Virus record (IMG/VR): IMGVR_UViG_3300028920_000095 | Coordinates: 1-50,590 of that record | Source: a virus | Reading direction: 5' to 3' (one strand) | DNA: 50,590 nucleotides | Shown here: positions 680 to 50,176 of the stretch, piece after piece | How positions within the stretch are numbered: position 1 is the stretch's first letter | Layout: the number at the start of each line of letters is the position of its first letter | Translations under genes and position numbers: made by a program | The notes under the pieces: model-generated | Seen by the model: the letters and a program-made list of their open reading frames with translations, nothing else | Database searches by the model: none | What the model was told of the DNA's origin: nothing

Positions 680-702
680 ATAGCTTTCTCCTTTCTTAAT
701 AT

Positions 703-714
703 TAATATAATAAA
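703..714 (-). promoter_or_regulatory. Candidate minus-strand promoter element
   Basis: Read on the minus strand this is TTTATTATATTA, and the identical 12-mer occurs at 3489-3500 (minus) ahead of the exonuclease gene. Both lie shortly upstream of an SD and ATG. In an AT-rich genome a 12-mer of this kind can recur by chance, so the call is weak. Confidence 0.3.
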
Positions 715-740
715 TTTTCTATTGAAATACTATATGAAAA

Positions 741-2225: not shown

Positions 2226-2541
2226 TAGTTTCTCTCTTTCTTTTGTAAAATTCTACAACATTCTTTTTATTTCTCTCAACACATTCAGAACATACTTTTT
2301 GATTATCTTCCAAATAGTATTTCCCACATTTAGGGCAGATTCCTTTTTCTACAAGCCACATTTTTCTATGGGTAGATGTAAGCTGAGAATTACTGACATC
2401 TTTAAATACTCCTTTTTTGTCAAGTTTGCGAAATTTTTTCCATCTGATTAAAGGTCTACTTTCAGATTTTTTACAAAGTTTCTTAAATAGTTCAACATGT
2501 TTTTCATTTTCCCAAAATAAGTTACGGATTCCGCTTGGCAT
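2215..2541 (-). CDS. Zinc-ribbon protein of unknown function
   Basis: A 108-aa basic protein. GGAG stands 8 bases before the ATG, which overlaps the exonuclease stop as TAATG. The C-terminal part has CPKCGKYYLE then VCSEC (Cys at about 69, 72, 84, 87), a CxxC-x11-CxxC zinc ribbon, followed by a lysine/arginine-rich tail. This layout is common in small phage nucleic-acid-binding proteins and at the edges of HNH-type proteins, but no HNH catalytic His/Asn set is visible. It is co-transcribed with the exonuclease. DNA or RNA binding is an inference. Confidence 0.6.
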   Translation of the reverse strand: MPSGIRNLFWENEKHVELFKKLCKKSESRPLIRWKKFRKLDKKGVFKDVSNSQLTSTHRKMWLVEKGICPKCGKYYLEDNQKVCSECVERNKKNVVEFYKRKRETNAD

Positions 2542-3464
2542 TAGAACAACTCCATTAATTTAAGGTTTAAAAGTGATGGTGTTTCAAAAATCATACATAG
2601 ATTTTTCCATTCATCTGTATTTGGCTCAGTAATCTTTTGAATTTCATAATCTATGTTCCATTTTAATCGAACTACTTTTTGATTTAATACCATCAATCTT
2701 ATATTGTGTGGTAAAAATAATTTAGACAAAAAAGGGTTATTTTTACCAAACATTTCATACAATTTAATGAAATAATCTTCTAAAGTTCCGTCACAATTAT
2801 CAAAAGCCTTTATAGATTTCTTAAATTGGTAACCTTTAACACCTTTAACATTATCACCACTATCTCCACGAATAATTTTATGTAAATAGATTTTTCTAAA
2901 ATCTGGTGTTTCAAATCGTTTTAAACACGCTTCTTGAGTAGGAGTATTACCATCACTATCAAAAATAACTCTGATATTTCTATGGTGTAAAGGCCATAAA
3001 TCTCTATCAGAAGAATATATAAAAATATCTTCTGTTGGATGTTTCATAACATAAGAAGCTATTACATCATCAGCTTCTTCACCATCAAGAAAAAACTTAG
3101 TATGTGGAATACAGTTGATATATTTTTGACATAGTTCTATTGGATTATAATCCAAATCTTTTTTATCACGGTTGCCTTTATATTTAATATACCCATCATA
3201 ATCTTTAAAAGCATCTTGATATTTTTTATAGAGTTGATGTTTTCTTTTCGGGTATCTATCTTCACATATTACTAACTTGGGTGTTCCATTATTGGAAGCA
3301 ATTTTCATAGCATGTCTTAATACTTTCATTAGACCCAATACTGAGCCAGTATGGATACCATCAGAGTTGGGTTGCATTTTCCTCTCGGTAGCGAAGTGAT
3401 TTCTCCATACTTGATTATTGAAATCTAATAGTACAGTAGTCCTTCTATCCATGCTTGTTTTCAT
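2541..3464 (-). CDS. 5'-3' exonuclease / flap endonuclease (FEN family)
   Basis: A 307-aa protein. The start is set at the ATG at 3464 because AAAGG lies 6 bases upstream; the longer in-frame reading to 3551 has no such signal. It shows the metal-binding and helical motifs of T5/T4-type FEN nucleases in order: LLDFNN with D14, GEEADD (about 128-133), YSSDRDLWPL (about 150-159), and a helix-three-turn-helix IRGDSGDNVKGVKG (about 198-211). Members remove RNA primers and 5' flaps during replication. Here it heads the leftward operon, well apart from the helicase/primase cluster at the right. Confidence 0.9.
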   Translation of the reverse strand: MKTSMDRRTTVLLDFNNQVWRNHFATERKMQPNSDGIHTGSVLGLMKVLRHAMKIASNNGTPKLVICEDRYPKRKHQLYKKYQDAFKDYDGYIKYKGNRDKKDLDYNPIELCQKYINCIPHTKFFLDGEEADDVIASYVMKHPTEDIFIYSSDRDLWPLHHRNIRVIFDSDGNTPTQEACLKRFETPDFRKIYLHKIIRGDSGDNVKGVKGYQFKKSIKAFDNCDGTLEDYFIKLYEMFGKNNPFLSKLFLPHNIRLMVLNQKVVRLKWNIDYEIQKITEPNTDEWKNLCMIFETPSLLNLKLMELF

Positions 3465-3488
3465 ATATAACCTTTCTCGGCTTAGAGA

Positions 3489-3500
3489 TAATATAATAAA
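3489..3500 (-). promoter_or_regulatory. Candidate minus-strand promoter element for the exonuclease operon
   Basis: The minus-strand 12-mer TTTATTATATTA is identical to the one at 703-714 and lies about 25 bases upstream of the exonuclease ATG at 3464. It falls in the divergent gap between leftward and rightward genes, where promoters for both arms are expected. No clear -35 hexamer is seen, and AT-rich chance matches are possible. Confidence 0.35.
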
Positions 3501-3618
3501 AACTTTACCTGATACTAAATACTTTTTTCGACATTTTAAAGAAAGTATCATATATTTATTACTTCATAACTGTTTTTTAGTTATATTAGCTTTATAGGTT
3601 TTTATCCAGAGAATGCTC

Positions 3619-3813
3619 ATGAAATGTCCATTATGCAAAAGTATTAAAATTATTCCTCATCTTCAGGAACCAATCATATATGGTAGTAGAAATAATGTGC
3701 AGTATTATTCTTGTGAAGATTGCGGAATTTTATTTGTACCTACTTTATCAAACAAAGTAACAGAACATAATAAATGTAATAATTCTAATAGTTTGAATGA
3801 ATTTGATGTATAG
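3619..3813 (+). CDS. Small zinc-ribbon protein
   Basis: A 64-aa protein, first rightward gene after the divergent region. Two ATGs (3613, 3619) are in frame; 3619 is preferred because AGAGA is spaced about 6 bases before it. The sequence has CPLC near the N-terminus and CEDCG about 30 residues later, a four-Cys zinc ribbon. The tail is Asn/Ser rich. It ends TAG TGA, a double stop. The function is unknown; a nucleic-acid-binding or regulatory role is inferred only from the zinc ribbon. Confidence 0.6.
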   Translation: MKCPLCKSIKIIPHLQEPIIYGSRNNVQYYSCEDCGILFVPTLSNKVTEHNKCNNSNSLNEFDV

Positions 3814-3947
3814 TGAGGGAAAATTTAAAACTTAAAAATCAAAGTAAACACAATAATTTACTGTGAAATGTGTTAAGTAAACCTCCTATATACGATAGTA
3901 TAAATAATAATATTATCTGGTAAAAGGTAAATAAACTGTTCTTTTCT

Positions 3948-3990
3948 TATAAGGAAGATATATTAGCTACGCTAATATATATTTCTTATA
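3948..3990 (+). ncRNA. Long imperfect hairpin (hairpin 1)
   Basis: Bases 3948-3967 pair with 3971-3990: nine pairs including one G-U, one G/A mismatch at 3957/3981, then ten perfect pairs closed by a three-base loop TAC. This is a 19-pair stem, far longer than expected by chance even in AT-rich DNA. It lies just 5' of the GGGAGAG SD at 3991-3997. In RNA it could be an RNase III site, a 5' stabilising stem, or part of a structured RNA; in DNA it could be a protein-binding inverted repeat. Confidence 0.6.
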
Positions 3991-4004
3991 GGGAGAGTTA
4001 CAGT

Positions 4005-4097
4005 ATGAAAGTTTCAAATAAGAAACTTTGCTGCACCTTACGGTGCAGCGGTTGTGTGAATTCACACAACCGTTCTATGATTTTAAGATTAGGGTAA
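4005..4097 (+). CDS. Possible 30-aa Cys-rich leader peptide embedded in hairpins
   Basis: ATG at 4005 follows GGGAGAG with 7-base spacing and opens 30 codons ending TAA: MKVSNKKLCCTLRCSGCVNS and ten more residues. It has four cysteines. The three perfect hairpins at 4008-4072 lie entirely within it, so the sequence is constrained by structure and the ORF may be incidental. If translated, ribosome passage would melt the hairpins, as in leader-peptide control of downstream genes. There is no homology I recognise. Confidence 0.3.
   Translation: MKVSNKKLCCTLRCSGCVNSHNRSMILRLG
4008..4072 (+). ncRNA. Three directly abutting perfect hairpins (hairpins 2-4)
   Basis: Hairpin 2: AAAGTTTC / GAAACTTT (4008-4015, 4022-4029) with loop AAATAA. 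Hairpin 3: GCTGCACC / GGTGCAGC (4030-4037, 4042-4049) with loop TTAC. Hairpin 4: a perfect 22-base palindrome at 4050-4071, reaching 24 bases with C4049/G4072, centred on GAATTC. No base separates the stems, so they could stack coaxially. Hairpins 3 and 4 are GC-rich compared with the surroundings. Candidates are a structured phage RNA, a packaging site, a terminator cluster or an operator for a dimeric protein. Confidence 0.6.
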
Positions 4098-4122
4098 TTA
4101 TAACAAAATTAGGAAATGGAAT

Positions 4123-4416
4123 ATGATACCAAAATACTTAGTACCAAAAGAACCAGTTAAACCTAATTCTGAATTCATCAAAATTAGTATGTCTTCTGGT
4201 AAAGTAGAGTGTTGTAATTGTTTAGACAAATATCATATTGAGTCAGGATTTATAATTTTAAGACCAGATTCTAATAAATTTGAACCTATGTGTGGTAAGT
4301 GTGCTCAAATAAGAATGTTTGGAAAAGTTATCTACTTTGAAGATTATCCTACATTCATAAAGAGATTGAAAACAAACCAATTTAAAGAATGGAAAGTAAC
4401 ATATGAGGAAAATTAA
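4123..4416 (+). CDS. Small Cys-motif protein before the terminase
   Basis: A 97-aa protein with AGGA 8 bases before its ATG. CCNCLDKYHIESGF (about residues 30-43) and CGKCAQIRMF (about 57-66) provide CxxC pairs for a zinc ribbon. The next gene overlaps its end by 14 bases, so it belongs to the terminase operon. Small zinc proteins in this position are common in phages. It might assist packaging or DNA recognition, but no family is recognised. Confidence 0.6.
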   Translation: MIPKYLVPKEPVKPNSEFIKISMSSGKVECCNCLDKYHIESGFIILRPDSNKFEPMCGKCAQIRMFGKVIYFEDYPTFIKRLKTNQFKEWKVTYEEN

Positions 4417-4726
4417 AGAAGTCCTTGATGAAGAAATTCATAATGGTTCTATTAATTGGGAAAAATTAGAATTAAAGATTCACACAGCTTTACCTATCCT
4501 TGAAGAAAAGTACACAGCTTCTACAGTAGAAGGCAAACAAGTTGATGCTAAATGGAAAGATGCTTTAGATTTTTCTTGCACAAATCCTAAAACCAAAGTT
4601 AAACATTGCTATAGACTTTTTCAACCACGTTTCTTAAATGGATACCTTTATTGTTCTGGTATACAAATTGGTATTTATGATGATTCTGGTAAACCAATAT
4701 TAATTGAACAGCCACAGAGGTTCTAA
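4403..4726 (+). CDS. Hypothetical protein directly upstream of large terminase
   Basis: A 107-aa protein overlapping the previous gene by 14 bases and the terminase start by one base (TAATG). A GGAAAG lies upstream at about 8-base spacing. The N-terminal half is charged and helical, and the C-terminal half is strand-rich (CYRLFQPRFLNGYLYCSGIQ). The small terminase subunit is usually encoded here, but there is no visible helix-turn-helix and it is short, so I leave it unassigned. If the phage has a small terminase within the window, this is the best-placed candidate. Confidence 0.6.
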   Translation: MRKIKEVLDEEIHNGSINWEKLELKIHTALPILEEKYTASTVEGKQVDAKWKDALDFSCTNPKTKVKHCYRLFQPRFLNGYLYCSGIQIGIYDDSGKPILIEQPQRF

Positions 4727-6645
4727 TGTCAAGAAAGACTTTTTCAGATGTTTTAAAATCAGAAAGGTCAATTTTAGGTTCTGGCAAAAAGAATCTAAAA
4801 GAAGCATATATTGATACTCTATTTGATGAAATGGAAGATTTAGCAAAAACACGTGATGAGAAATTTAAAGAACAAAAACAAAATGAAACATTTACAGAAG
4901 AATTTCCTACAGGATTCTCTCCATTTAATGAAGAGTGGAGATATGAGCCAGTAGATTCTCGCTATTTCTTTGAAAAGATGCTTGGAGAGTCTTGTTCTGC
5001 TAAACAACAAGAAACTGTTGATGTTATTTGTGGTAGAAATCCTTTTGAATATACAGACTTAAATTGGGCAGAGTCTATCTTAATGTGGGGTAAAGGTAGT
5101 GGAAAAGATTCTACTATTGCAAAATGTTTTGATTATCAGTGTTATAAATTAGCCTGTATGACAAATCCTCAAAAGTTTTTAGGGCTTGGTGTAGGTTCCC
5201 CTATAGACCTTGTAAATGTAGCTTCTAATGCAAAACAAGCTAAAAATATATTTTTCAAATATCTTGTTGCTTTCATTAAGAAAACTCGTGATCCAGATAC
5301 AGGTATGCCTTGGTTCTCAACTAAAAACTTTTACTTTGATGTTGGAACAAGAAAATTTAAGTATATGGATTTGCGTGATAGAGATGGAGATATTAAACAA
5401 GTTAATATTGAGTTCAAAAGAGGAATAACTTGTCATTCTCTAACATCAGATAAATTTACTGGTGAAGGTCTTACTATTGTTTTAGGAGTTATGGATGAAG
5501 TTGGAGCAATGAGACCTGAAAGAGTATTTGGTGTATCTACTGGTAAGAGTGATGATAAACTTATAGGACAATATGATTCTTTAGGCTCTTCAATACGAAG
5601 AAGTTCTAAGTTTGGTAAATTAATGTGCATAAGCTATAAGTATGGGACAAACTGTCCTATGAGCATAATGTTAAAGAAAGCATCTAAAAATCCCAGAGCA
5701 TTTGTACGGAAGTATTCAACTTATGAAGTAAGAACTGATAAATCAGAAGGAGATTTGAGAGAACAGTTTAGGGATGATTATGAAAAAGACCCTGAAAAGG
5801 CTGCAATGATATATGAGTGCAAAGACCCTAAATTTGAAACTTCTAATCTTTTCAGCAATACTTTTGTTATAGATGGTGCTATAGATACTGTGCAGAGATT
5901 TTCTATAAATCCTCTGAGAAATGATACTCATACAATAAAAGATATTTCTATTGGAATTAATAATCTTGTAGAACCATGGTTTAAAGGAGATGATGAATAT
6001 TATTATGCGCTTCATATAGACTTAGCTAAAGGCCAGACTTTTAATGGTGGAGATGCCATAGGAATGGTATTAGCTCATATGCAACAAATGAGAGTACATT
6101 ATGATAAAGCATGGATAGATTATTATAAAAAGCAATATGGGATAGATTTATCTGAATATCAAGGTCAGTTAAGATATGGCATAGTAATTGATCTTGCTGC
6201 ACAAATTGTTTGCACAAGAGAAGCCAAAGAAGTACGCATAGCTGACGTTAGGAAGTTTGCTATAGATTTACAAGAGAAGCGTAGTTTTGGAATTTTAAAA
6301 GTAACTCTTGATAGATGGAATAGTGCAGAGTCTATTCAAGAATTTAACCGAAAAGGAATAGATGCTGAAGAATTTTCTGTTGATAGAAGTAAAGCACCTT
6401 ATTACACTATGAAAGATTATATGCAACAGGGAATATTTAAAATTTATAGCAATCCTATTTTCAGACGTGAAGCTAAAGAAGTTTTAGATGTAGGTAATAA
6501 AATTGATCATCCAGACATTTCTACTGAGAGATTTGAAACAGAAGGGATAGAGAATGGTAGTAAAGATGTATTAGATGGATGTGCAGCAGTTACAAATACT
6601 TTAGTGAAGGAGTTAGCAGGAGATGGAGAAGTATACTTTGGATGA
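4726..6645 (+). CDS. terL: Terminase large subunit (packaging ATPase/nuclease)
   Basis: A 639-aa protein. The N-terminal ATPase has Walker A WGKGSGKDST (about residues 121-130) and a Walker B-like strand VLGVMDEVGAM (about 251-261). The C-terminal RNase H-like nuclease begins near ALHIDLAKGQTFNGGDAIG (about 428-446), with further acidic strands YGIVIDLAAQ and DVLDGCAAV near the end. It powers DNA translocation into the prohead through the portal and cuts concatemers. The start overlaps the previous stop (TAATG). The next gene starts inside its last 23 bases. Family assignment is firm; the packaging type (cos or headful) is not evident. Confidence 0.93.
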   Translation: MSRKTFSDVLKSERSILGSGKKNLKEAYIDTLFDEMEDLAKTRDEKFKEQKQNETFTEEFPTGFSPFNEEWRYEPVDSRYFFEKMLGESCSAKQQETVDVICGRNPFEYTDLNWAESILMWGKGSGKDSTIAKCFDYQCYKLACMTNPQKFLGLGVGSPIDLVNVASNAKQAKNIFFKYLVAFIKKTRDPDTGMPWFSTKNFYFDVGTRKFKYMDLRDRDGDIKQVNIEFKRGITCHSLTSDKFTGEGLTIVLGVMDEVGAMRPERVFGVSTGKSDDKLIGQYDSLGSSIRRSSKFGKLMCISYKYGTNCPMSIMLKKASKNPRAFVRKYSTYEVRTDKSEGDLREQFRDDYEKDPEKAAMIYECKDPKFETSNLFSNTFVIDGAIDTVQRFSINPLRNDTHTIKDISIGINNLVEPWFKGDDEYYYALHIDLAKGQTFNGGDAIGMVLAHMQQMRVHYDKAWIDYYKKQYGIDLSEYQGQLRYGIVIDLAAQIVCTREAKEVRIADVRKFAIDLQEKRSFGILKVTLDRWNSAESIQEFNRKGIDAEEFSVDRSKAPYYTMKDYMQQGIFKIYSNPIFRREAKEVLDVGNKIDHPDISTERFETEGIENGSKDVLDGCAAVTNTLVKELAGDGEVYFG

Positions 6646-7093: not shown

Positions 7094-8719
7094 ATGATAG
7101 CACCTTCAAGAACTATGGTTAAAACTGCCAGAGCAATGACTCTGGAAAAGAAGTTAAAAGGCAAAGTGCGTCATAGTGATATGATGACTTCTTCTGATAC
7201 TGAACCTCATGAAGATCCTGATTTCGCAGTAACCAGAGATTTTATGACTAATGCTTATGAAACTAATGAATGGATTAGAGCAATCATAGACCTTACTGTA
7301 GAGCGTTCTTGTCAAGTTGAACTATTTCCTATGCCAATACAAAGTAGAGTTGATGGGAAAGGTGATATATCTGATGCAGTTAAAAGAAAGATGGAAACTA
7401 TAGCCAAGCTTCTACTTAGACCTAATTCAGATAATGAAAGTTTTTATGAAATCCGTAAGAAAATTCTTAAAGATGTTCTTATATATGATGAAGCTGGTGC
7501 TCAAATTATAAAAGAATCAAAATATTCTTCTGAAAAGAATGAGTATTCTATATGGACTAATATTACTGGTGAAGAACTTTTTGTTAATCCAAAACCAGAT
7601 GGAACATTACCAGATACTAAAACTTACGTTCAGTATCGAAATAGAGAAACTATAGCAACTTTTGATAAATATTCTTTTATGAATTTTATTAAAAACCGTA
7701 GGGCAGGATATGCAAATGGTCTTTCCCCTATTACTTCTTTGGCAATATCTATTCTTGGTGATCTTGAAATGGTCAATTATAATTATAAATTCTTTCAGAA
7801 TAATGCAAAACCTAATATAGCATTTCTGTTTGAGAATCTCGGTTTTGGTAAAGGTCAAGGTGCTTTAGAAAGAGCAAAAACTTGGTATAATCGTGAGCTT
7901 AAAGGAAAACCTCATTTGCCTTTATTTATGGGAGCAGAAAAAGGTAATGTAAAGATTCACGAATTGAGAACTTCTCATAAAGACATGGAATTTATAAATT
8001 GGGATTTATTATTATTAAGCCGTATGTTAGCAATATATGGTTGTCAACCTATGGTTCTTGGTGTTCTTACTGATACAACAGGGAAATTAAATTCTGAAGT
8101 GCAAACTGAACAATTTAAGAAGAATGCAATAATTCCTCTCATTAGGATGTTGGTTCATACTATGAATGCAACTCTTATATGGGCAGATCAGAATTTGAAT
8201 TTTGATGATATTTATTTGACATCTACTAATCTTGATATAGAAGATGAAAAGAAGCAAGCAGAGATAGATGAAATATATTTAGAGCATGGAGTAATTACTA
8301 TAAATCAATTAAGAAGTAAGTTACAAATGAATTCTGTACCTTGGGGTGATGAGCCTTTTGTGCCTCTTAATTTTGCTCCGCTTTCAATTTTAGAAGAATA
8401 TCATCAAGCTAAATTAGCTCCTGATGCTGCTGATAATAATGTTAAAAGTGATAATGCAGATGATAATGCAGATGATAATGCAGATGATAAGAAAAAGAAA
8501 ATTGCTTCAGTATCTGACCCAAATTATAGGTATTTAATAAATAATTTTAAAGTACCAACTGGATTAGAAAAAATGAGCAATACTGAGCTTAAAGAAGTGG
8601 TGACTTCTCTTGTTAAAAAGAGAGAGCATTTTTATAGTAAGGCTTATTCTTTTCCAACAAATAATGCAGTAGTAGATACAGTACAGAGATTTGATATTAA
8701 TTTTAATGGTAAAAGGTAA
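7094..8719 (+). CDS. Portal protein (HK97-like family)
   Basis: A 541-aa protein with AAGGA before the ATG. It has portal-family features: RAIIDLTVERS near residue 63, a mid-region GYANGLSPITSLAISILGDLEMVNYNYKFFQNNAKP (around 203-240; compare the SPL...Y..fFxNgA signature), and a helical stem/wing including GKLNSEVQTEQFKKN. It forms the dodecameric vertex through which DNA passes. Near the C-terminus three perfect 12-base repeats encode DNADDNADDNADD (around residue 452), an acidic low-complexity tail. The position between terminase and protease fits. Confidence 0.9.
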   Translation: MIAPSRTMVKTARAMTLEKKLKGKVRHSDMMTSSDTEPHEDPDFAVTRDFMTNAYETNEWIRAIIDLTVERSCQVELFPMPIQSRVDGKGDISDAVKRKMETIAKLLLRPNSDNESFYEIRKKILKDVLIYDEAGAQIIKESKYSSEKNEYSIWTNITGEELFVNPKPDGTLPDTKTYVQYRNRETIATFDKYSFMNFIKNRRAGYANGLSPITSLAISILGDLEMVNYNYKFFQNNAKPNIAFLFENLGFGKGQGALERAKTWYNRELKGKPHLPLFMGAEKGNVKIHELRTSHKDMEFINWDLLLLSRMLAIYGCQPMVLGVLTDTTGKLNSEVQTEQFKKNAIIPLIRMLVHTMNATLIWADQNLNFDDIYLTSTNLDIEDEKKQAEIDEIYLEHGVITINQLRSKLQMNSVPWGDEPFVPLNFAPLSILEEYHQAKLAPDAADNNVKSDNADDNADDNADDKKKKIASVSDPNYRYLINNFKVPTGLEKMSNTELKEVVTSLVKKREHFYSKAYSFPTNNAVVDTVQRFDINFNGKR

Positions 8720-10416
8720 TGATGCAAGATATTCATTTTAAACCTATTAATGGTGATTACAGCAGCTATGGATTTATTAAAGTTGCAGAAGATAAACTTT
8801 TATTTTCATTATTAAAATATGACCATCCTAAAGAGTGGAAAAATTTTGTAACTGAAAATTTTGAAGATTTTGCAAAAGCTCAATATTATGCTATGTATTT
8901 TGACTACAACAATCCTTCTTCTCGAAGAAGAAAGCTGTCTAATTTTATTAAGTCTATATTTGATCAAAAGAATAGTGATGTTGCTTTGATAATGATTAAG
9001 AGTATAGCTCATAAGTGTGATAAACTTGAAGAAGAAGAAATAGTAAAATTTGTAACTCAAGTATCACTACCTACTGCTGGGTATTTTAAGAAAATGATTA
9101 ATGGAAGATATTTATGGGACATTGATGATAAAAAAAGATTCAATAAAGGTATAGGTAAAGCATTTGTTATAACGTATATTAATAATAAGTTTGATAAAGA
9201 TGAAACCTGGAAATATATAAAGAAACATTGTTATTTAAAAGATGATATATGGTGTTACAAATCTAATAGAAATAAGGAAATTATTGAGAAAACTTTCCTT
9301 TCTTATTTTAAAAATGGAGGCAAAATTTTGAAAGAAGTTATTTTAAAAGAACCCAAAAAATTTGAGGGTTTCATAAAACTTGGTAAAATTCTTACTGAAG
9401 ATGGAGAAGATTTTCTTTCACTCGAAAAAGAAATTGCTGATAGTAAACATCCTGTACTTTACGGTACAGCCTCTACTACTAATATTGATAGAGAAGATGA
9501 AAGAGTATCTAAGAATTTTATAGCAAAAATGCAGAGAACTGGTAAAGGTTTGCCTCTTACTGATAATACGCATTATCCGCAAGAATCTAAGCAGACTATT
9601 GGGGTAGTTAAGGAATCAGGTGGAGATGAAGAAAATTTTAATATTAAAGCAAAATTAATGAAGCCTTCTGATAGTCCTGCTGTTGATTTTATTATAAAGC
9701 AGATGAAAACAGGAATTAATTACGGCCTTTCTATAGGTGGAAAGATTACTAAAGTATTTAGAGAATTTAGTGATGAAATGAAAAAAGAAATTTTTGTTCT
9801 TGATGATGGAGAACTTTTTCATATTTGTCTAACTACTCAACCTGCTAATGCTGATACATTAGGAGTAGCAATAGGAAAGGCTTTGAGCGAATGCGAAAAG
9901 GAAAACCCTTCTGAAAAAGAAATTTTAACATTCAAGCATAGTTCAAAATTAAGCAAATCAGAACCTGAAAATGTTGATATAGATAAACTTCCTGATATTG
10001 CTTTCCCTCAAGAATATTCTACTAAGAAAGTACACAAAGACTATCCGCATCATTTTGTTACTGATAAAGATATGTTGTTTTTACATTCTGGACTTTTATT
10101 AAAAGTTTTTGCTGAAGCAATTTCTAAGAAAGCACCAGAATATGTTCTCAATCATCTTGCTACTCATCTCCAAGTAATTGGAATGCAGGGTAAGATTGAT
10201 GAGATTAAGAAAGCTGTTGTTGCTGTTGAATCTATGGACAAAGTAAAACAAGTTACTGATGAACTTACTGTAGAGCTGAAACAGTTCTTTGATTCTATTA
10301 AATCTGTAAGTAAATTACAGACTGAGACTGGTAAGGATAAAATAATTGGTAAAATTGTAGGAGATGTGAGCACAAAAATATCTGATATATTGAAACCTCT
10401 TCAAAATGAGGACTAA
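8719..10416 (+). CDS. Prohead protease with extra N-terminal and C-terminal domains
   Basis: A 565-aa protein. The start overlaps the portal stop (TAATG); the ATG at 8722 has better SD spacing (AAAAGG). The central part (about residues 240-390) matches HK97-type prohead serine proteases: GTASTTNIDREDERVSKNF, the His motif LTDNTHYPQ (H285), the Ser motif YGLSIGG (S338) and LTTQPANADT. It processes capsid and scaffold during maturation. The 200-residue N-terminal domain is unknown, and the C-terminal about 150 residues are helical and scaffold-like. A GGAGG plus in-frame TTG at 9328 could start a shorter form that keeps the protease. Confidence 0.85.
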   Translation: MMQDIHFKPINGDYSSYGFIKVAEDKLLFSLLKYDHPKEWKNFVTENFEDFAKAQYYAMYFDYNNPSSRRRKLSNFIKSIFDQKNSDVALIMIKSIAHKCDKLEEEEIVKFVTQVSLPTAGYFKKMINGRYLWDIDDKKRFNKGIGKAFVITYINNKFDKDETWKYIKKHCYLKDDIWCYKSNRNKEIIEKTFLSYFKNGGKILKEVILKEPKKFEGFIKLGKILTEDGEDFLSLEKEIADSKHPVLYGTASTTNIDREDERVSKNFIAKMQRTGKGLPLTDNTHYPQESKQTIGVVKESGGDEENFNIKAKLMKPSDSPAVDFIIKQMKTGINYGLSIGGKITKVFREFSDEMKKEIFVLDDGELFHICLTTQPANADTLGVAIGKALSECEKENPSEKEILTFKHSSKLSKSEPENVDIDKLPDIAFPQEYSTKKVHKDYPHHFVTDKDMLFLHSGLLLKVFAEAISKKAPEYVLNHLATHLQVIGMQGKIDEIKKAVVAVESMDKVKQVTDELTVELKQFFDSIKSVSKLQTETGKDKIIGKIVGDVSTKISDILKPLQNED

Positions 10417-11115: not shown

Positions 11116-12102
11116 ATGAAAGTAAAGGTCAAAAATGTTAAAGACCTTCAGAGGTTAGTTAAGGCTATAACGATTGGTGCTGGCCAAAGTGGTAATGCAG
11201 CAAATCCGTTCCTGCCTGCTCCTCTTGCTGCGACTTTTATTGATATTGTTACTGAATATAATAACTTCCGCAAAGTGTTTCGTAGCTTTCCTATGAAATC
11301 TGCTACACGCACAGTGCCGAAGCTCCTGACTGGTACCAATGTGTATTATCAGGCTAATGAAGCAACTGAAGGTCAGGAAACTACCTTCACAGCTTCCAGC
11401 ATTACACTGACAGCTAAAAAGCTGTTTGCATGGTTGGAAGTTTCTGAAGAAACTTTTGAAGATGGTGTTATTGATATGAAATCTATGATAAGGAAGATTT
11501 TTGCACGTGGTATGGGGATCCATGAAGAAAAGGCTTTTCTTACTGGTGATGTTGATCATACTCCTACTACTGCTACTGAAGCAAGTGCAACTCCCACTAC
11601 ATGGTTTAATAAAGATGCTCGTTTGGCGTTTGATGGTATTCTTACTATTGGACGTGAATCTGGCACCTCTATGCATGTCAATGGCAATGCTACTACTGAT
11701 GTTTTTGGTGAAGCTATGTACCGTCTTGGCCTTTATGCCAAGCAGACTTCTCAGCTGATTTCTTTCCTTAATCCTTGGTCATGTAATCAGTTGCTTCGTG
11801 ATACTTCTCTAAAAACTGTTGATAAGTATGGCCCAAAAGCTACACTTCTGACTGGTGAAATTGGTGAGATTTATAATAAATGGAAGATCATTAATAGTGA
11901 TTACATTCCTAACGGTCAGGGTGTCACAACTCACCGTGATAATGTTATTATTGGTGACCGTAGGCGTATCAAAATGGCTGAAGATGTTGTTATCAAAAAT
12001 GATAGCACTATTATGGCTATTTCTGAACGTATTGCGATGGAAGTTGAATATGATGATGCAGTTCTTGCAATGTTTGGACTGACTTCTCCGTCAGCTTCAT
12101 AA
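11116..12102 (+). CDS. Major capsid protein (HK97 fold)
   Basis: A 328-aa protein. Family features are the N-terminal stretch GGxxx-free arm followed by PFLPAPLAATFIDIVTEYNNF, the P-domain and E-loop region, LFAWLEVSEETFEDG (about residues 95-110) and FARGMGIHEEKAFLTG (about 119-134), as in phage_capsid (HK97-type) proteins. The codons are richer in G and C than in neighbouring genes, as is also true for the tail tube gene, suggesting selection for high expression. The preceding protease and scaffold-like genes, and the terminator just after it, support the call. Confidence 0.92.
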   Translation: MKVKVKNVKDLQRLVKAITIGAGQSGNAANPFLPAPLAATFIDIVTEYNNFRKVFRSFPMKSATRTVPKLLTGTNVYYQANEATEGQETTFTASSITLTAKKLFAWLEVSEETFEDGVIDMKSMIRKIFARGMGIHEEKAFLTGDVDHTPTTATEASATPTTWFNKDARLAFDGILTIGRESGTSMHVNGNATTDVFGEAMYRLGLYAKQTSQLISFLNPWSCNQLLRDTSLKTVDKYGPKATLLTGEIGEIYNKWKIINSDYIPNGQGVTTHRDNVIIGDRRRIKMAEDVVIKNDSTIMAISERIAMEVEYDDAVLAMFGLTSPSAS

Positions 12103-12124: not shown

Positions 12125-12160
12125 AGAGAAAGGGGCAAATTATAGCCCCTTTCTCTCTTA
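12125..12160 (+). terminator. Rho-independent terminator after the capsid gene
   Basis: A 12-pair stem AGAGAAAGGGGC (12125-12136) with GCCCCTTTCTCT (12145-12156), loop AAATTATA, followed by a short pyrimidine run. It lies 22 bases after the capsid stop and 27 bases before the next start, so it can limit read-through from the capsid transcript. Confidence 0.85.
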
Positions 12161-27413: not shown

Positions 27414-27424
27414 AGATGGGCATA

Positions 27425-27480
27425 GGTAGGAAGTGGAAGAAAAAGGTTTGGCTGGTTTCCCTTTTCTGAAACTTCCTACC
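27425..27480 (+). terminator. Stem-loop after the tail tube gene
   Basis: The outer stem GGTAGGAAGT (27425-27434) pairs with ACTTCCTACC (27471-27480), and an inner AGAAAAAGG / CCTTTTCT pairing extends it. There is no U-run after it, so it may be a weak terminator or a 3' stabiliser that keeps tube mRNA above the downstream chaperone level. Confidence 0.6.
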
Positions 27481-44618: not shown

Positions 44619-44773
44619 TATGAAAATAGTACATGAAATAACTATGGCATAAATTTTATAGTATATTATATAATTAAGAATAAATAAATCAGCATTTATC
44701 TTTACCGTGCCCGATTTTTATTAAGCTGATATAATAAATTTTTATTATATTTAGTTTAGGGATTAGTATATTT
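44619..44773 (+). other. Intergenic control region before the replication operon
   Basis: A 155-base region with the 18-base element, an ATCAGC / GCTGAT pair (44688-44693, 44725-44730) spanning a 31-base loop that contains the only GC-rich word here, ACCGTGCCCG, and the near-palindrome ATAATAAATTTTTATTAT (44731 on). It separates late structural genes from replication genes and may combine a termination signal and a promoter. No U-tailed terminator is clear. Confidence 0.45.
44653..44670 (+). promoter_or_regulatory. Candidate promoter, 18-base repeated element (copy 1)
   Basis: The 18-mer ATTTTATAGTATATTATA is identical at 50124-50141. Copy 1 stands about 100 bases before the SNF2 helicase gene, and copy 2 about 35 bases before the next operon's first ATG. 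Both follow the end of an operon and precede a new one. Such a shared site fits a phage-class promoter or regulator site. A related TTTATTATATTT lies at 44741-44752. Confidence 0.5.
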
Positions 44774-50123: not shown

Positions 50124-50141
50124 ATTTTATAGTATATTATA
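50124..50141 (+). promoter_or_regulatory. Candidate promoter, 18-base repeated element (copy 2)
   Basis: Identical to the 18-mer at 44653-44670. It lies in the 86-base gap after the primase gene and about 35 bases before the ATG of the acidic/lysine-repeat protein. The distance from element to start differs from copy 1, but both precede new transcription units. Confidence 0.5.
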
Positions 50142-50176
50142 AATATAAGAATTTTAGAAAGGTATTATAAATGTAA

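Follow-up and report, generated by a model that had tools for sequence, protein, structure and literature searches.

Why should four hairpins stand end to end ahead of the packaging and capsid genes of this virus, and do they act as DNA or as RNA? The window in which we addressed this question is one entire IMG/VR virus record (50,590 bases). Its genes lie on the minus strand up to 3551, where we find a 5'-3' exonuclease (2541-3551); from 3613 onward, as far as the right end, they lie on the plus strand. The immediate 5' neighbor of the hairpin cluster is a 66-aa zinc-type ORF (3613-3813, plus strand), and the first conserved gene on its 3' side is a 97-aa zinc-type gene (4123-4416, plus strand; a Phage_zn_bind_2 match below the cut-off), which is followed by a 107-aa ORF. 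Using PHROGs and Pfam we assigned the downstream plus-strand genes for the terminase large subunit (TerL, 4726-6645), the portal (7094-8719), a candidate head maturation protease (8719-10416) and the major head protein (11116-12102), as well as helicases and a primase at the far right of the record. The cluster is intergenic within this long co-directional operon, the plus-strand series of which spans more than 40 kb. A first-pass annotation had located it between small zinc genes and the terminase operon, just upstream of terminase; there is indeed a zinc-type ORF on the 5' side, but the cluster is not directly upstream of TerL, which lies ~650 nt away behind the 97-aa and 107-aa ORFs.

Sequence inspection and folding recovered all four of the stems described in that annotation, arranged end to end between 3936 and 4072. 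Stem 1 (3936-4003, plus strand) had been taken for a 19-pair hairpin at 3948-3990, which is an underestimate: when G.U pairs are counted, plus-strand RNA forms a hairpin of 30 pairs with four G.U pairs (3943/3995, 3945/3993, 3947/3991 and 3954/3984), one G.A mismatch, a small internal loop near the base and a UAC loop. The folding energy of this stem is -30.9 kcal/mol on the plus strand and -15.8 kcal/mol on the minus strand, an asymmetry that stems from the four transition-type departures, each of which is a G.U pair in the plus sense and none A.C (only P about 1/16 for four of four, taken alone). Stems 2 to 4, also given here for the plus strand, are a perfect 8-bp hairpin with a 6-nt loop (stem 2, 4008-4029; -5.9 kcal/mol), a perfect GC-rich 8-bp hairpin with the 4-nt loop UUAC (stem 3, 4030-4049; -14.4 kcal/mol) and a spacerless perfect palindrome of 24 nt, CGGTTGTGTGAATTCACACAACCG (stem 4, 4049-4072; -15.4 kcal/mol), of which 4050-4071 is a part. 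These three abut without a spacer, and in its 24-nt form stem 4 has base 4049 in common with stem 3. Stems 2 to 4 are also flanked by 5-nt direct repeats of TATGA (4004-4008 and 4076-4080), 72 nt apart and in frame, which may be due to chance.

The cluster itself is real and far beyond chance, as had been claimed. Folding of 3930-4110 gave -71.9 kcal/mol on the plus strand (z = -11.0) and -55.8 kcal/mol on the minus strand (z = -8.2), with no shuffle reaching either value, and the region folded as single-stranded DNA gave z = -9.6. When we scanned both strands of the whole record for structure in 120-nt segments, with correction for composition, the top-ranking site was 3931(+) (-7.3 residual SD), followed by 3931(-) (-4.5) and then by a site scoring -3.7. 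Moreover, among 118 sequences (1.05 Mb, some overlapping), no other site packs three perfect stems, each of at least 8 bp, into 120 nt. Chance is thereby excluded, and the strand asymmetry together with the G.U pattern of stem 1 supports an RNA structure on the plus strand.

In order to place the cluster in a wider context, we compared it with the corresponding leaders of related viruses. Phage records contained no match to the first 25 kb of the window, and a TerL search of genome contigs produced no relative; relatives were found via TerL and the exonuclease, yielding eleven distinct leaders for comparison (L001, L002, L006, L007, L008, L017, L105, L108, L109, L113 and L114; L017 is near-identical to L018, L109 is the same in sequence as L016 and L111, L114 is the same as L115, and L105 is partial). 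Where a contig reaches far enough, the order is exonuclease (minus strand), leader, zinc-type gene, small gene and TerL, the zinc-type gene being of the same type and in the same place as the 97-aa gene of the window. No counterpart of the 66-aa ORF was seen in the same slot among the relatives examined, and a database search found no relatives of it. None of the eleven leaders has stems homologous to those of the window, nor did a multiple alignment of six of them contain shared stems. Searches with Rfam covariance models gave nothing at the gathering score (weak matches were far below the cut-off), and a distant blastn search of 3900-4125 against phages and plasmids returned only weak matches of 30-34 nt (best E 0.02). 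The exact sequences of stems 3 and 4 were absent from viral contigs, and no second copy of the palindromes was present in the record, the viral contigs or the other collections searched. The cluster is single copy, with no similar copies found in the genome or its relatives, and assignment to a dispersed palindromic element of the REP or MITE type was rejected. Among the relatives found, the cluster is specific to the lineage of the window, where it was most likely acquired.

These comparisons bear directly on packaging. The first-pass annotation had offered a cos/pac site, a structured packaging RNA, a terminator or attenuator cluster and a decoy RNA as candidate roles, had considered sequence unable to choose among them, and had named beforehand, as part of what would count against its proposals, the absence of the stems from relatives that keep the terminase operon. 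That absence is what we observed. Like phi29 pRNA and cos/pac sites, the cluster lies near packaging genes, ~650 nt upstream of TerL; unlike them, it is not conserved with terminase, has no Rfam match to a packaging RNA and is separated from TerL by two small genes. With the gene order retained and the stems missing in all eleven relatives, and with no Rfam match, the packaging readings are unlikely, and we regard either form of them as extremely improbable. Assignment to cos/pac is disfavored given that the stems are not kept with the cognate terminase in the eleven relatives, and assignment to a phi29-type packaging RNA, or to any other known structured RNA family, was rejected given the Rfam result. 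What the asymmetry and the G.U pairs support is a structured RNA on the plus strand.

A hairpin elsewhere in the group served as a positive control. Directly 3' of the major capsid gene there is a strong hairpin in the window (12125-12156) and in L095 (after 13761) and L097 (after 5463); for no other relative does the retrieved sequence extend past that gene. Its position is kept while its sequence is entirely different in all three, and it is probably a terminator or a processing stem. Because this hairpin persists despite turnover of its sequence, one would expect the same of a leader hairpin that packaging could not do without, and no such persistence is seen. A further long intergenic hairpin, with arms GGTAGGAAGT and ACTTCCTACC and no U-tract, is found at 27424-27480.

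We tentatively propose, with a probability that we put at roughly 0.45, that the cluster is a cis-acting structure in plus-strand mRNA that tunes the level and timing of terminase and capsid messages and is not a packaging signal. By computation, plus-strand RNA can form the 30-bp stem and then three abutting short stems far better than the minus strand does, the site is intergenic in a co-directional plus-strand operon, and its structure is the strongest in the record. A stem that stabilizes a 5' end or directs processing calls for a stable coding-strand stem in the intergenic stretch of an operon, which is what we find here. In addition, the eleven leaders of the relatives are above random in structure (mean z of -1.44 versus -0.33 for 144 controls, P = 0.004; the controls are random segments and not intergenic regions alone), and the slot after the capsid gene is likewise hairpin-bearing with turnover of sequence. 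The leader slot thus tends to be structured without sharing sequence, most extremely so in the window, with a plus-strand leader z of -12.8 versus -3.8 (L113), -3.4 (L002), -2.0 (L008), -1.9 (L114), -1.8 (L006), -1.2 (L007), -0.9 (L017), -0.8 (L105), -0.25 (L108), -0.04 (L001) and +0.25 (L109). Arguing against an mRNA element, some of these leaders are unstructured (those of L001, L109 and L108 fold no more strongly than shuffles), structure in the relatives is about equal on both strands, and the promoter-like match immediately upstream of the cluster is weak.

Such an element would lie in untranslated or barely translated mRNA, downstream of the 66-aa zinc ORF and upstream of the terminase, portal and capsid genes, and could be a 5' leader or a spacer between genes that share a transcript. 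Early mRNAs of the T7 type contain RNase III processing sites, each a long near-perfect stem between genes of a co-directional operon. Stem 1 is likewise long, near-perfect and located between genes of one co-directional operon; unlike those sites, the cluster adds three abutting perfect stems, and cleavage here is a prediction. Assuming RNase cleavage and the host enzymes for it, stem 1 could serve as a substrate for a double-strand-specific RNase, after which the tandem stems may protect the downstream messenger at its 5' end and, for the upstream messenger, form a 3' barrier. The outcome would be control of processing, decay or translation of the terminase/capsid operon. It is established that hairpins at or near the 5' end stabilize downstream mRNA in bacteria, as reviewed in PMC3997798, with the papA 5' stem-loop and the Bacillus subtilis aprE leader as examples. 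The cluster resembles these in that its hairpins are stable and lie toward the 5' side of a messenger, and differs in consisting of four stems end to end, one of them of 30 bp, and in possibly lying between genes of one transcript instead of at the 5' end. If the leader is functional, the phage can exchange wholesale the regulatory RNA that heads its packaging and capsid operon while keeping the genes, and the window and its eleven relatives constitute a natural set of variants for how leader structure sets late expression.

The cluster also overlaps a short ORF that the first-pass annotation did not mention. This candidate leader ORF of 30 aa, MKVSNKKLCCTLRCSGCVNSHNRSMILRLG (4005-4097, plus strand), is preceded by a Shine-Dalgarno-like AGGGAGAG (3990-3997), the end of which is seven bases from the start codon. 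The ORF opens in the gap that separates stem 1 from stem 2 and passes through stems 2 to 4. A Shine-Dalgarno-led ORF of equal or greater length arose by chance in 2.8% of leader shuffles and 4.6% of shuffles of 3814-4122, values (P = 0.028 and 0.046) that are suggestive only, twelve leaders having been looked at. The 30-aa product has no database match. As AGGGAGAG lies in the 3' arm of stem 1, the predicted ribosome site is fully paired, and within the proposed mRNA element this burial might prevent translation of the ORF until cleavage or opening of stem 1.

The same ORF could instead belong to a leader-peptide attenuator, in which its translation, by carrying ribosomes through stems 2 to 4, determines whether RNA polymerase is paused or terminated by stem 4, ahead of the terminase operon. 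The single-stranded position of the start codon, the good Shine-Dalgarno spacing and the path through all three abutting stems fit this model, as does a Shine-Dalgarno-led ORF of 46 codons in the same slot of L006 (4158-4298), which passes through a large palindrome with a CCCCTTAAGGGG core (P = 0.008). Nevertheless, we consider attenuation unlikely: the ribosome site is paired in stem 1, such ORFs are no more frequent than chance in the other ten relatives, folding of the cluster revealed no mutually exclusive alternative, and stem 4 has a poor U-tract. A lax scan for terminators identified two sites, one per strand (0.1 expected in shuffles). On the plus strand the site is stem 4, whose tail CTATGATTTT is broken (TTCTATGATTTT being interrupted by C, A and G); on the minus strand it is stem 3, with AAAGTTTCTT. 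An intrinsic terminator at the cluster is only weakly supported.

Two further explanations would dispense with RNA. The stems might be neutral or selfish palindromes, or a local product of replication or assembly, with no function; their lack of conservation in relatives, their single copy and the flanking TATGA repeats, which a small insertion could leave, are consistent with this. However, the record and the collections searched hold no other copies, a 5-nt flank match is weak, and a neutral origin leaves the G.U-only departures of stem 1 unexplained, and we judge it unlikely. Alternatively, the dyads, chiefly stem 4, may bind a dimeric regulator or a replication initiator as DNA, or form cruciforms. 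The spacerless 24-nt palindrome, the strong fold of single-stranded DNA (z = -9.6) and a switch in the sign of GC skew near 3500-3750 could each be read in this way. The skew switch, however, coincides with the change in gene direction, so a replication origin is not needed to account for it and was set aside as a candidate; furthermore, the departures in the stem 1 dyad are of the type tolerated by RNA pairing and the palindromes have no second copy in the record or viral contigs, making a DNA-level element unlikely.

At the level of RNA, a last known comparison is the put antiterminator of HK022, which is ~70 nt long, has two stem-loops (stem II having a non-canonical middle), follows an early promoter and has a reach of at least 10 kb (PMC9378689). 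An RNA of this sort, accompanying RNA polymerase along the long late operon, would suit tandem stem-loops that head a plus-strand gene series of more than 40 kb. With put (PMC9378689) the cluster shares its tandem stem-loops and its place at the start of a phage operon; unlike put, it is found at late and not early genes, it has four stems rather than two, and stems 2 to 4 are perfect, without the non-canonical pairs within put. Relatives of the same gene order, in addition, lack the stems. Membership in the put class was rejected on structure, and a put-like function is very improbable. It is a long shot, though less so, that the cluster represents a new kind of phage cis-acting RNA, in which perfect hairpins, abutting one another in a rod, follow a long stem that contains G.U pairs and overlap a very short ORF. 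Such an RNA would act on RNA polymerase or ribosomes to set expression of the late operon and would be replaced rather than conserved between related phages.

With regard to transcription of the region, we built a promoter-like motif from the relatives and scored it across the window. The motif recurs around TATTATATTA and TAGTATATTA, in relatives also beside the exonuclease and late genes, and fits well at 699-718(-), 50124-50143(+), 3485-3504(-) and 44653-44672(+). A moderate match lies upstream of the 66-aa ORF (3573-3592, plus strand; top 0.06% of positions), and the best match just upstream of the cluster is weak (3897-3916, plus strand; top 0.11% of positions, about chance level for the stretch searched). 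High-scoring matches occur within genes too, and the motif is a lead and not a mapped promoter. A short TATCAT motif, not enriched in the window on its own, is present in most relatives (leaders of L001, L006, L007, L016 and L017), in the interval from which the exonuclease and late genes diverge, and at 3544-3552 in the window. Other leaders have features of their own: long purine-rich tracts replace stems in L001 (5320-5360), L007 (1470-1510), L017 and L105 (1-40), and the leader of L113 (4400-4700), GC-rich within AT-rich DNA, contains multiple hairpins (z of -3.8 on the plus strand and -4.3 on the minus strand) and is unrelated in sequence to that of the window.
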